DNA from: Halorhabdus salina
Lineage (GTDB): Archaea > Halobacteriota > Halobacteria > Halobacteriales > Haloarculaceae
Assembly (NCBI RefSeq): GCF_013839425.1
Contig: NZ_JACDNP010000003.1
Span: 235,872-299,871, forward strand
DNA: 64,000 nt
Direction: 5' to 3'
The notes below the pieces were generated by a model, which was given only the letters and a program-made list of their open reading frames with translations, had not been told where the DNA came from and did no database searches. The position numbers were made by a program, and so were the translations under genes. Numbering within the stretch: the stretch's first letter is position 1; the number at the start of each line of letters is the position of its first letter. Positions 8,566 through 13,182 of this stretch are shown piece after piece.

Positions 8566-8694
8566 ATGACCTGGTTCGGGGCCGATCACTACAAAGTCCC
8601 CGATCTGACGACTGGTCCTGTCCTGACGGGCGTTCCCAACTGCCGGGAGCAGACCCCAGCACATGAATAGGTCGACGTGCAATCACCGCCTATC

Positions 8695-9996
8695 ATGGGT
8701 TTGCGAGACTTTCTGCGTGAGGAGGCCCGAACGACGCTCACCGAACCCGTCGACGCGCGGTTCGAACTCCCGGCGTTGGCCGTCCAAGACGAGTCGAAAC
8801 CGACCGTCTTCGAGACCGTCGGTGAATACCCGAACGTGCGCGCAGTGGCCAACACGCTCGGCTCCCGCGAGATGATCGGCCGGGCACTCGATGTGGAGCC
8901 GTCGGCAATCGTCGACGCGATGGGCTCGGCGATGAACGATCCGCTGCCCGTCGAGAAAACGGCCGAGCCATCCTTCGAGCACGTCGCAAGCGAGCCAACG
9001 ATCGACGACCACGTGCCGATTCCGGTGTTCTACGACGAGCACGAGCGACAGTACTTCGCGTCCTCGGTCGTGATCAGCAAGGATCCCGAGACTGGCGTCC
9101 AGAACGCATCCTTTCACCGGATGATGTTCGATTCGGGCAACCGGCTCGTGATGCGCCTCGTCGAACGGCACCTCCACGACATCTACTCCCGTACTGAAGG
9201 CGGGTTGGAGGTTGCGATCGTGATGGGCGTCCATCCGGCCGTCGAACTGGCCGCCGCAACGTCGTTCGCCCCGGAAAAGAGTGAGCTTGCGCTTGCCAAT
9301 CGACTGCTCGATGGCACCTTTGCAACGACAGAGGTCGACGGGATCGACGTGCCCGCAGACGCCGAAATCGTCATGCGACCGACCATCACCGACGAGCGAA
9401 GCGAAGAGGGGCCCTTCGTCGATCTCTCCCGGACGTGGGATCGGACGCGTCAGCAACCCGTCGTCGAAGTGGCGGATCTCTACATGCGGCCCGATCCCTA
9501 CGCGCGGATCATCGTCCCCGGTCGCACCGAACACGCCCACCTGATGGGCATCCCGCAGGAGCCCCGGATCTACCGGATCGTCGAAAACACTGTTCCGACG
9601 GTCGAGAACGTCGTGTTGACGCCCGGCGGCTGCTCGTGGCTGCACGGCGTGGTCCAGCTCGACAAGCGCAGCGAGGGCGATCCGAAGAACGCCGGCATGG
9701 CCGCGCTGGCGGGCCACCCCTCGATGAAGAAGGTAACCGTCGTCGACAGCGATATCGACCCGGCCGATCCGCAATCCGTCGAATGGGCGACCGCGACGCG
9801 AATGCAGCCTGACGAGGATATCACAGTCATCGAGAACGCCAAGGGGTCTTCCCTGGATCCCTCCCAGGACTACGATCGCGGGACGCTCGCAAAGTGGATC
9901 GTCGATGCAACCGTGCCCGGCGACCGCGACCGAAGCGACTTCGCCGAGGTGACAGTGCCCAAAGCCGAGGAAATCGACCTCACGGACTACCAATAA
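8695..9996 (+). CDS. UbiD-family decarboxylase, likely trans-anhydromevalonate 5-phosphate decarboxylase
   Basis: The protein has 433 residues. UbiD enzymes decarboxylate unsaturated acids with prenylated FMN. The N-terminal domain, the ISKDPETGVQNASFHRM cofactor region, and the typical C-terminal half starting LTPGGCSWLHGVVQL are present. The next three genes encode the two subunits of an aconitase-X-type dehydratase and UbiX, exactly the set of the modified archaeal mevalonate route (phosphomevalonate to trans-anhydromevalonate phosphate to isopentenyl phosphate). That context makes this substrate more likely than an aromatic acid. The ATG at 8695 gives the family start GLRDFLREEA. Confidence 0.85.
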   Translation: MGLRDFLREEARTTLTEPVDARFELPALAVQDESKPTVFETVGEYPNVRAVANTLGSREMIGRALDVEPSAIVDAMGSAMNDPLPVEKTAEPSFEHVASEPTIDDHVPIPVFYDEHERQYFASSVVISKDPETGVQNASFHRMMFDSGNRLVMRLVERHLHDIYSRTEGGLEVAIVMGVHPAVELAAATSFAPEKSELALANRLLDGTFATTEVDGIDVPADAEIVMRPTITDERSEEGPFVDLSRTWDRTRQQPVVEVADLYMRPDPYARIIVPGRTEHAHLMGIPQEPRIYRIVENTVPTVENVVLTPGGCSWLHGVVQLDKRSEGDPKNAGMAALAGHPSMKKVTVVDSDIDPADPQSVEWATATRMQPDEDITVIENAKGSSLDPSQDYDRGTLAKWIVDATVPGDRDRSDFAEVTVPKAEEIDLTDYQ

Positions 9997-10014
9997 CACA
10001 GGAGACGACCAACT

Positions 10015-11193
10015 ATGCACCTGACACAACACGAGGAAGATTTACTCGAATCGAGCAATTCGGCCGTCCGGAAGGCGATGGAACTGCTCGTCAAGCTTGG
10101 GGATATTTACGGTGCCGAGGAGATGATCGAGATCGAGTCCGCCCAGGCCTCGGGCATCTCGTACAAGTCGATCGGTGACCCCGGCGTCGAGTTTCTGGAA
10201 GGCTTCGCCGACGAGGGCGCCGAAGCGTCGGTCCCGACCTTTGCCAACCCGGCCGGAATGGACCTCGAACGCTGGGAGGAGCTGGGCATCGACGACGAGT
10301 TCGCCGAACAGCAGTTCCGCATTCGCGACGCACTCAAGGAGATGGGAATCGTCCTCTCGTTCACCTGCACGCCCTACCTCGCGGGCAATCTCCCGCGGCG
10401 CGGCCAGCACGTCGCGTGGGCCGAATCCTCGGCCGTCTCCTTTGTCAACAGTGTGGTTGGAGCTCGAACCAACCGCGAGGGCGGTCCCTCGGCGCTGGCG
10501 GCGTCAATCACCGGCCGGACGCCGAAATACGGGCTCCACCTCGAAGAGAATCGCCAGCCAACCTACCGGATCGATGTCGAAGCCGACATCGAGAGTCAAG
10601 CAGACTTCGCAGCCCTCGGATCGTGGACGGGCCGACTCGTCGAGGATGGCAAACCGTACTTCACGGGGATCGACGCGGGCGGGACGGACCATCTGAAGGC
10701 CCTGGGGGCAGCGATGGCCGCCACCGGCGCGGTCGCACTGCACTTCGTCGAGGGCGTCACGACCGAGATGGAACCCCCCGAAAACGTCGAGACGGTGACC
10801 TTCGGCGAGGGCGAACTCCAGGCAGAGTACGACGAACTCACGACGGCCGAGGATCCCGAACTCGTCGTCATCGGCTGTCCACACTGCTCGCCCGAAGAGA
10901 TCCAGGACGTCGCGGCGACCGTCGAGGGCAAGTCTCTCACCAGCGATCTGTGGGTCTGTACGAGCGCTTCGGTCAAGACCTGGGCCGATCGGAACGGGCT
11001 GACTGAAACCATCGAGGCGGCTGGCGGCAAGGTACTGGCGGACACCTGCAACGTCGTCTCGCCGATCGAAGAACTGGGGTATGAATCCAGTGCGACTGAC
11101 TCGGCGAAGGCCGCGACGTATCTGCCAGGCTTTTGCAACCAGGACGTGGCGTTCAACGATAAGGAGACGCTGCTCGCGGAGGTGACCGAGTGA
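10015..11193 (+). CDS. aconitase X large subunit, likely phosphomevalonate dehydratase
   Basis: The protein has 392 residues (former DUF521). It would form the [4Fe-4S]-bearing subunit that removes water from 5-phosphomevalonate. Candidate cluster cysteines are C118 (SFTCTPYLAGN), C288/C291 (VIGCPHCS) and C345 (ADTCNVVSP); one of the two in the CPHC pair is extra. The family stretch VGARTNREGGPSALAASITG is clear. The gene starts 18 bp after ubiD and overlaps the small-subunit gene by 1 bp. Other aconitase-X proteins act on hydroxyproline derivatives, but the UbiD/UbiX neighbours argue for isoprenoid synthesis. Confidence 0.88.
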   Translation: MHLTQHEEDLLESSNSAVRKAMELLVKLGDIYGAEEMIEIESAQASGISYKSIGDPGVEFLEGFADEGAEASVPTFANPAGMDLERWEELGIDDEFAEQQFRIRDALKEMGIVLSFTCTPYLAGNLPRRGQHVAWAESSAVSFVNSVVGARTNREGGPSALAASITGRTPKYGLHLEENRQPTYRIDVEADIESQADFAALGSWTGRLVEDGKPYFTGIDAGGTDHLKALGAAMAATGAVALHFVEGVTTEMEPPENVETVTFGEGELQAEYDELTTAEDPELVVIGCPHCSPEEIQDVAATVEGKSLTSDLWVCTSASVKTWADRNGLTETIEAAGGKVLADTCNVVSPIEELGYESSATDSAKAATYLPGFCNQDVAFNDKETLLAEVTE

Positions 11194-11618
11194 TGACGGA
11201 TAGTGACGCCGCCAGAGCAGCGACCGAAATCACAGCCGAGCCGATCACCGAAGGAACCGGCCGCGGGGAAGTCCTCCGCTCGCCCGTCCCGATCAGCTTT
11301 TACGGCGCGGTCGAACCCGACACGGGCGAGTTCATCGAGGACGGCCATCCCCTGGAGGGCGAGAACATTGCGGGCAAGGTGCTGGTGTTCCCGCGCGGGA
11401 AGGGCTCGACAGTCGGCTCCTATGTCCTGTACGGACTGGCAAACAACGGCTGTGCGCCGGCGGCGATCGTCAACGAGGAGACCGAAACGATCGTCGCGAC
11501 GGGCGCGATCCTCGGGGAGATTCCCTGTCTTGACTCCCCGGAGATGGATCTGGAAACGCTCGAAGACGGCGAGACCGTCGAGGTCGACGCCGACGCGGGC
11601 GTGATTCGGCGACAATGA
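11193..11618 (+). CDS. aconitase X small (swivel) subunit, likely phosphomevalonate dehydratase
   Basis: The protein has 141 residues (former DUF126). It is the mobile swivel domain that completes the active site of the large subunit; in many bacteria the two are fused. The typical loop VFPRGKGSTVGSYVLYGL is the catalytic/phosphate region of the domain. GTG at 11190 and ATG at 11193 are both in frame; the ATG was taken. It overlaps the UbiX gene by 4 bp. Confidence 0.88.
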   Translation: MTDSDAARAATEITAEPITEGTGRGEVLRSPVPISFYGAVEPDTGEFIEDGHPLEGENIAGKVLVFPRGKGSTVGSYVLYGLANNGCAPAAIVNEETETIVATGAILGEIPCLDSPEMDLETLEDGETVEVDADAGVIRRQ

Positions 11619-12187
11619 CCGAGACGCGTTTCGTCGTCGGCGTGACGGGTGCGTCGGGGATCCCGATCGCCATCCGGACAGTCGAGGCCCTGGCTGAACA
11701 CGGCGCGGTCCACACGGTAGTCACCGACGCCGCCGAGTCGGTGATGGCCCACGAGTCTGGCTCGCGCGAAGCGACGATGGATCGGCTACAGGAGGCTTCA
11801 GCCGAACTCTACGGGGAGAGCGAAGTGGGCGCGCCGATCGCCTCTGGTTCGTTCGACACTGACGGGATGGTAATCGTCCCGGCCTCGATGAACACCGTCG
11901 CGGCCGTCGCCACCGGTCGCTCGGATTCGCTGGTGACCCGGGCCGCCGACGTCACGCTGAAGGAACGCCGCCGGCTTGTGGTCGTTCCCCGGGAGACACC
12001 GCTGAGTCAGATTCACTTGGAAAATCTGACGAAACTCGCGGAGCTGGGTGTCGACGTCGTGCCCCCCGTTCTCGGCTTTTACTTCGATCCCGAGGACCCC
12101 GATGACTTCGTCGATCACATCGTCGGGAAGATCCTCGAACGGTTCGGTCTCGATCACGACTGTTACGACGCCTGGAATCCCGACTGA
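11615..12187 (+). CDS. ubiX: flavin prenyltransferase UbiX
   Basis: The protein has 190 residues. UbiX joins a dimethylallyl group to FMN and makes the prenyl-FMN cofactor that UbiD needs. Signatures are the FMN-binding GVTGASGIPIAIR, the PASMNTVAAVATG loop, and RLVVVPRETPLSQIHLENL. Being the last gene of the ubiD-acnX operon, it would supply cofactor to the UbiD encoded first. Its own prenyl donor, dimethylallyl phosphate, comes from the same isoprenoid pathway. Confidence 0.95.
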   Translation: MTETRFVVGVTGASGIPIAIRTVEALAEHGAVHTVVTDAAESVMAHESGSREATMDRLQEASAELYGESEVGAPIASGSFDTDGMVIVPASMNTVAAVATGRSDSLVTRAADVTLKERRRLVVVPRETPLSQIHLENLTKLAELGVDVVPPVLGFYFDPEDPDDFVDHIVGKILERFGLDHDCYDAWNPD

Positions 12188-12273: not shown

Positions 12274-13182
12274 ATGGACGTGCTGACGCGCCTCGTCGTG
12301 ATGATCGGCCTGCTTGCGGTCGGCGTCGGGTTACGAACGGGCGGTATCCTGACGGCGACCCGCGTGGGCTGGCTCAACAGCGTCGCCTTCTACGTCGTCT
12401 TGCCGGCGCTGGTGTTCGACTCGACGCACGCCGAGCCCTTAGGCGAGATCGTCTCGGTACGACTACTTCTCGGCGTCGTCGTGCTCGTGGCCGTGACGGC
12501 GGCGATCGCGATGGTGGTTCACCGACGGCTCGAATCGGCCTCCGCGCGAGCCGCGGCGACGGTCCAGTCCTATCACACCAATCTGGGCTACATCGGCCTC
12601 CCGATCGTGGCGAGTGCGCTCGGCGACCAGGCGGCGGCGATCGGCAGCGTCGTCCTCGGGATCGGCGCGCTCGTCCAAATCCCGTTGACGGTCACGCTGC
12701 TTGTTCGGATCACCGGTGCTGGGACGAACGTCCGAGATGAAATCAAACGGCTGGTGACCAATCCTGTCCTGATCGCGTTGCTAATCGGACTCGCGGTCTC
12801 CCAGGCACCGTTCGCGGTGACTGGCCAGCCTGCCGAAGGCATTGGGTTGGTTGCCGAGGCGGCCCTGCCGATCGCGCTGCTCTGTGTGGGGGGCTCGATC
12901 GAACTCGAATCGATCGACTTCGATCGCTCGATCGTCGGGAGTGTTTTGGCACTGAAACTGCTCGTCATGCCCGCTGTCGCCTGGCTGGTCTTTTTCGCCA
13001 TCGGGGCCACCCCCTGGGAACTCCGCACAGTCGTCGTCATGTTTGGGGCACCGGCGGCTGTCTCGACGTTCGTCTACGTCACCGAGATGGGTGGTGATCG
13101 CCGAGTAGCCTCCGTGAACGTCTTCCTCACGACAGTGGCCTCGGCAGTCACGCTTTCGGCGTTGATCACCCTTGTTCCGTGA
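12274..13182 (+). CDS. AEC-family (auxin efflux carrier-like) transporter
   Basis: The protein has 302 residues and about 10 hydrophobic spans arranged as two five-helix repeats with a break near the middle (around IKRLVTNPVLIALLIGL). The family pattern YHTNLGYIGLPIV and the C-terminal FGAPAAVSTFVYVTEMGGD are typical. Substrates in this family are organic acids and similar anions; the actual substrate here is unknown. It lies 86 bp after ubiX and may be separate from that operon. Confidence 0.85.
   Translation: MDVLTRLVVMIGLLAVGVGLRTGGILTATRVGWLNSVAFYVVLPALVFDSTHAEPLGEIVSVRLLLGVVVLVAVTAAIAMVVHRRLESASARAAATVQSYHTNLGYIGLPIVASALGDQAAAIGSVVLGIGALVQIPLTVTLLVRITGAGTNVRDEIKRLVTNPVLIALLIGLAVSQAPFAVTGQPAEGIGLVAEAALPIALLCVGGSIELESIDFDRSIVGSVLALKLLVMPAVAWLVFFAIGATPWELRTVVVMFGAPAAVSTFVYVTEMGGDRRVASVNVFLTTVASAVTLSALITLVP

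Follow-up and report, generated by a model that had tools for sequence, protein, structure and literature searches.

The archaeal (modified) mevalonate pathway, known from Aeropyrum pernix, Thermococcus kodakarensis and methanogens, costs less ATP than other routes (PMC10040528). Halobacteria have been described as an exception that does not use it (PMC10040528, PMC9385802), and phosphomevalonate decarboxylase (PMD) is said to have replaced the archaeal route in this class (PMC9254496). The haloarchaea-type pathway, as in Haloferax volcanii, combines PMD with isopentenyl phosphate kinase (IPK). A survey of 229 genomes from 138 orders extended the known distribution of the archaeal pathway, and its sampling within Halobacteria is sparse (PMC11052028). 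Our literature search, for which subscription papers were mostly outside reach, returned no report of the archaeal mevalonate route in Halobacteria. Here we examine a 64,000-nucleotide stretch (the window) of the genome of Halorhabdus salina, in which a first-pass annotation had predicted an operon of UbiD, aconitase X (AcnX) and UbiX genes. The operon is confirmed at positions 8695-12187 as four intact, closely spaced open reading frames on the plus strand, encoding UbiD, the large and small AcnX subunits and UbiX, with domain matches that far exceed the cut-offs. We consider it likely that these genes form a complete archaeal-type lower mevalonate branch parallel to PMD, ATP-saving and probably oxygen-sensitive, which is found chiefly in anaerobic or sulfur-respiring haloarchaea and is most simply explained as an ancestral retention.

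In the proposed scheme, the two AcnX subunits would convert mevalonate 5-phosphate (MVA5P) to trans-anhydromevalonate 5-phosphate with the aid of a [4Fe-4S] cluster; UbiD, using prenyl-FMN supplied by UbiX, would convert this intermediate to isopentenyl phosphate, and the IPK of the genome would then yield isopentenyl diphosphate. PMD brings about the same overall change in a single step at the cost of ATP and should not be oxygen-sensitive, so that the cell would hold an ATP-saving route beside an ATP-spending one.

Predicted enzymes of the operon

The large AcnX subunit (10015..11193, plus strand; PF04412, 492 bits) and the small, swivel subunit (11190..11618, plus strand; PF01989, 115 bits) are predicted to be the two subunits of a phosphomevalonate dehydratase (PMDh), an assignment that scores, phylogeny and active-site residues all support. 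The two domains lie on adjacent open reading frames, as in type IIb AcnX with its separate large and swivel subunits. The best match of the large subunit is T. kodakarensis PMDh (TkPMDh; 7cnr_A), at 347 bits as against 194 bits for a type I, hydroxyproline-type AcnX, and the best solved relative of the small subunit is the TK1248 small subunit (7cnr_B, 118 bits). In trees, the window AcnX groups with archaeal AcnX. The roles of cluster and substrate residues were taken from published work on PMDh (PMC8184944, PMC10040528), in which the [4Fe-4S] cysteines are C122, C297 and C356 in the A. pernix enzyme (ApPMDh) and C110, C283 and C342 in TkPMDh; their counterparts in the window protein are C118, C288 and C345, which are invariant across all aligned sequences. 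The MVA5P-binding residues of TkPMDh kept in the window protein comprise G48, S50, N79, P80, E129, S130, S131, K361 and Y365. V49, a main-chain contact, is replaced by Ile, and the only notable swap among the MVA5P contacts is at N53, a phosphate contact, where haloarchaea and their sister lineage have Ser and the majority of the other Halobacteriota tested have Thr. Together with the three cluster cysteines, the Gly, Ser, Asn, Glu, Ser, Lys and Tyr substrate residues are invariant in all 18 aligned haloarchaeal proteins.

UbiD (8695..9996, plus strand; TIGR00148, 302 bits, above cut-off) is the only UbiD of the genome. It carries PF01977 (142 bits), PF20695 and PF20696, and scores 203-264 bits against AcnX-linked archaeal UbiDs. 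We read it as trans-anhydromevalonate phosphate decarboxylase (AMPD). Like AcnX-linked archaeal UbiDs it has an EGPFVD motif; in an alignment of 15 UbiDs, haloarchaeal or AcnX-linked archaeal, the GPFVD part is invariant and the Glu is present in 14, whereas the nearest solved non-AMPD UbiDs have EGPFGE or EGPFAE (6h6x, which we take to be TtnD, and AnInD). The fourth gene encodes a UbiX flavin prenyltransferase (11615..12187, plus strand; NF004685, 211 bits against a cut-off of 188; UbiX structure 6m8t, 154 bits), predicted to make the prenyl-FMN cofactor for this UbiD. The score against TkPMDh, the substrate and cluster residues, the trees and the UbiD motif all agree with the first-pass annotation, which had taken the four genes for the archaeal-type lower mevalonate set.

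PMD and the predicted second lower branch

The same annotation held that haloarchaea use PMD, proposed that PMD be sought elsewhere in the genome, and left open whether the operon provides a second route, a replacing route or an enzyme set for another substrate. The window genome (Halorhabdus, code G000) comprises 2.86 Mb and is 99.99% complete. Its search with the Pfam model MDD_C (PF18376) gave no match; the replacing route that this would suggest was rejected as the product of a false negative, since this model barely recognises haloarchaeal PMD, scoring it at only ~20-33 bits. With a profile built from four haloarchaeal PMDs, PMD was detected in all 391 Halobacteria genomes (86 genera) of our survey, including the window genome (G000:C20:128913-129881, E 1.8e-170). 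The PMDs of all carriers of the operon are full length and keep both the GSSxSG and the DTGA motif, which we take to be the ATP loop and the catalytic Asp motif of DMD/PMD enzymes. Mevalonate kinase (MVK; 269 bits) and IPK (188 bits) are encoded side by side (G000:C1:179515-181171). The presence of PMD departs from the usual archaeal-type state, in which no PMD or DMD homologue occurs, and together with MVK, IPK and the operon it means that the genome holds both lower mevalonate branches. Therefore, the expectation that this haloarchaeon uses PMD holds, the replacing route can be set aside, and a second route is favoured among the three options.

The genomic position of PMD in other carriers favours this option further. 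In all four carriers of the family Halobacteriaceae (f2: Halodesulfurarchaeum and the genus coded g53), the PMD gene follows UbiX on the same strand at a distance of 66-82 bp, an arrangement that links the operon with mevalonate 5-phosphate; among the genomic data, this is the strongest indication that the operon enzymes handle that compound, and we infer that they would be active on it. Within Halorhabdus, the four operon genes (dN/dS 0.04-0.16) and PMD (0.09-0.13) are all under purifying selection, and both routes are therefore maintained. ApPMDh is inactive after exposure to air (PMC10040528). Given this sensitivity and the lower ATP cost of the archaeal route, PMD would be suited to growth with oxygen and the operon to anoxic growth on little energy, and we put forward as a hypothesis an oxygen-dependent division of labour between the two.

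PMD relatives of other kinds were also encountered. Halodesulfurarchaeum has, beside the operon-joined PMD, a second, divergent PMD paralogue (G001:C1:863933-864874 and G007:C1:1800466-1801407) that keeps DTGA. G414, a non-haloarchaeal member of the Halobacteriota (f25, ~1.0 Mb), encodes AcnX and a PMD-like protein (242 bits; G414:C24:82000-82974, minus strand) with MQTG instead of DTGA; this protein appears to be without the catalytic Asp and is possibly a relative of the kinase type, for example a mevalonate 3-kinase.

Architecture, distribution and origin of the operon

The ATG at 8695 as the start of UbiD is backed by an MGLR N-terminus kept across all carrier genera and by an upstream TATA-like promoter element, ACATGAATAGG (8661..8671, plus strand), whose sequence is the same in each of the seven Halorhabdus genomes. 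The AATA of this element lies ~26-29 nt before the ATG, a spacing that would fit a leaderless transcript as in haloarchaea, and the other carrier genera have TATA-like elements at equal distance from the UbiD start. The later gene junctions of the window operon are 1-4 nt overlaps, the small AcnX subunit being likelier to start at the ATG at 11193 than at 11190. Another 17 haloarchaeal genomes have the four genes in the same order; their junctions range from -61 to +57 nt (mostly -8 to +30), with the start calls on these homologues being approximate. A divergent AlaX gene is the upstream neighbour, and a TTCYCA...CGGGAG stretch just 5' of the TATA-like element (~8630-8660), conserved throughout the seven Halorhabdus genomes, is a possible site for a regulator. 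Downstream, an AEC-family transporter (12274-13182) follows the operon in the seven Halorhabdus genomes; it was rejected as an operon member, as it adjoins the operon in this genus only and not in the other carrier genera.

Full-length archaeal-type AcnX, always in the four-gene order, was found in 18 of the 391 Halobacteria genomes and six of the 86 genera: Halorhabdus (g1, 7/7 genomes), Halapricum (g7, 4/5), Halodesulfurarchaeum (g17, 2/2), Halalkaliarchaeum (g82, 2/2), g53 (2/2) and g2 (1/1). Partial, sub-cut-off AcnX matches in other haloarchaea cover only part of the model and were not counted. Neither was the two-part AcnX of another haloarchaeon, G271 of family f3 (L045, 9250-10197 and 8810-9178, minus strand), a real AcnX of a kind rare in haloarchaea, which is without the phosphate-contact Ser and Asn and is probably of the hydroxyproline type; it served as a negative control.

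Among the carriers, Halodesulfurarchaeum is a strict anaerobe, Halalkaliarchaeum AArc-Sl is a facultative sulfur respirer, and Halapricum salinum is listed as encoding a polysulfide reductase operon (PMC6176080). On the basis of ~4-5 lineages, there is a suggestive link to such lifestyles, in that the haloarchaea retaining the operon are for the most part anaerobes or sulfur respirers. Heme-copper oxidase is missing from four of 80 genomes tested, three of which carry the operon; with G271 left out, terminal oxidase is absent from 3/18 carriers as against 1/61 non-carriers, which lends weak support to the link with anaerobic life. The anaerobic ribonucleotide reductase NrdD (G000:C12:76448-78169 in the window genome) occurs in six of the seven Halorhabdus genomes and in no others of the 391 Halobacteria, and as a marker of anaerobes it is uninformative beyond this one genus.

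Several observations weigh against the link, which is imperfect, and against the ancestral reading discussed below. The Halorhabdus and Halapricum carriers retain terminal oxidase genes, and one Halapricum genome is without the operon. Natronolimnobius strains presumably belong to a family in which no archaeal-type AcnX was found. Natronolimnobius includes sulfur-respiring strains (PMC6176080). As to ancestry, the G522 genome is only 84% complete, so that the absence of PMD from it is provisional, and the relationships among carrier genera are resolved only in part, which leaves room for transfer between haloarchaea. That oxygen drove the removal of the ancestral route from aerobic haloarchaea is a tentative reading, which we regard as somewhat more doubtful than credible.

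The simplest reading would be that PMD arose at a time when the ancestral route already existed, and that most haloarchaeal lineages lost this route afterwards. All 19 haloarchaeal AcnX proteins in the tree fall into one clade (100/100), which is joined (100/99) to G522, a non-halophilic Halobacteriota genome of another family code whose AcnX is not acidic; our search found no PMD in G522 nor in 18 of the 19 other Halobacteriota examined. The alternative that comes closest to this reading leaves the function unchanged and concerns the origin only: the operon would have been gained by lateral transfer and passed among anaerobic haloarchaea. The patchy presence of the operon speaks for it, as does the identity of the large AcnX subunit, which between Halorhabdus and Halalkaliarchaeum (78-79%), across families, nearly equals that between Halorhabdus and Halapricum (80-81%). 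However, the single haloarchaeal clade stands beside a non-halophilic Halobacteriota lineage, the concatenated operon tree follows families (Halorhabdus beside Halapricum, the two Halobacteriaceae genera together), and the operon proteins are strongly acidic and halophile-adapted in all carriers tested. We hold transfer to be possible, and the less probable of the two origins.

It is unlikely that the operon enzymes instead carry out a different dehydration and decarboxylation, with some other 3-hydroxy acid, phosphorylated or plain, as substrate, and that isoprenoids come from PMD alone. In favour of such a substrate, all carriers have an intact PMD, which in Halorhabdus is also under selection, so that the operon is formally dispensable for isoprenoids, and the Asn53 phosphate contact of TkPMDh is replaced by Ser in haloarchaea. 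Against it, every remaining side chain that contacts MVA5P is kept, and Ser or Thr occupies the Asn53 position in the other Halobacteriota that were compared; as a group, these should depend on the archaeal route, because 19 of 20 have no detectable PMD. Moreover, four genomes have PMD next to the operon, and no catabolic genes were found to travel with it across the carrier genera.

A hydroxyproline-type AcnX accompanied by an unrelated UbiD/UbiX pair is very improbable. The sole NCBIfam match of the large subunit does bear the C3LHyp dehydratase name (NF051439), but at 248 bits it falls far below the cut-off of 700, and the two-subunit architecture argues against this type. The phylogeny that the first-pass annotation had called for places the window AcnX with archaeal PMDh and not with the hydroxyproline type, and the residues side with PMDh, whereas the type-I-like AcnX of G271 differs at the diagnostic sites. 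Just as improbable is a decaying, functionless relic of the ancestral pathway, for although PMD could suffice and most haloarchaea do without the operon, the four genes are intact in 18 of 18 genomes, evolve at the low dN/dS given above, and keep their order and promoter element.

Comparison with known pathways

As enzymes of the archaeal mevalonate route, the operon products are ordinary; the unexpected point is that Halobacteria have them alongside PMD. Cultivated haloarchaea with both routes make the question of replacement by PMD testable, and the carriers offer halophilic PMDh and AMPD enzymes for study. With the archaeal pathway of A. pernix, T. kodakarensis and methanogens, the locus shares the enzyme set, the cluster cysteines, the substrate residues and the UbiD motif, and with that of other Halobacteriota, in which UbiD is likewise commonly followed by AcnX large and AcnX small, it shares the gene order. 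It differs from the usual archaeal pathway in its Halobacteria host, in the intact PMD alongside, in having UbiX as the 3'-most gene and in its strongly acidic proteins. Like the haloarchaea-type pathway of H. volcanii, the window genome has PMD, MVK and IPK; unlike it, there is a second, predicted ATP-saving bypass of the PMD step, which in the four Halobacteriaceae genomes apparently lies in one operon with PMD. Type I AcnX (C3LHyp dehydratase) belongs to the same AcnX family, but is a single fused chain with other phosphate-site residues and a hydroxyproline gene context (PMC8184944), unlike the window pair. The closest parallel for two types of lower branch in one archaeal genome is found in metagenome-assembled genomes of Hodarchaeales (Asgard) (PMC11052028); these combine the archaea-type with a eukaryote-type (PMK/DMD) branch, whereas the haloarchaeal carriers, among them closed genomes of cultivated strains, combine the archaea-type branch with PMD.

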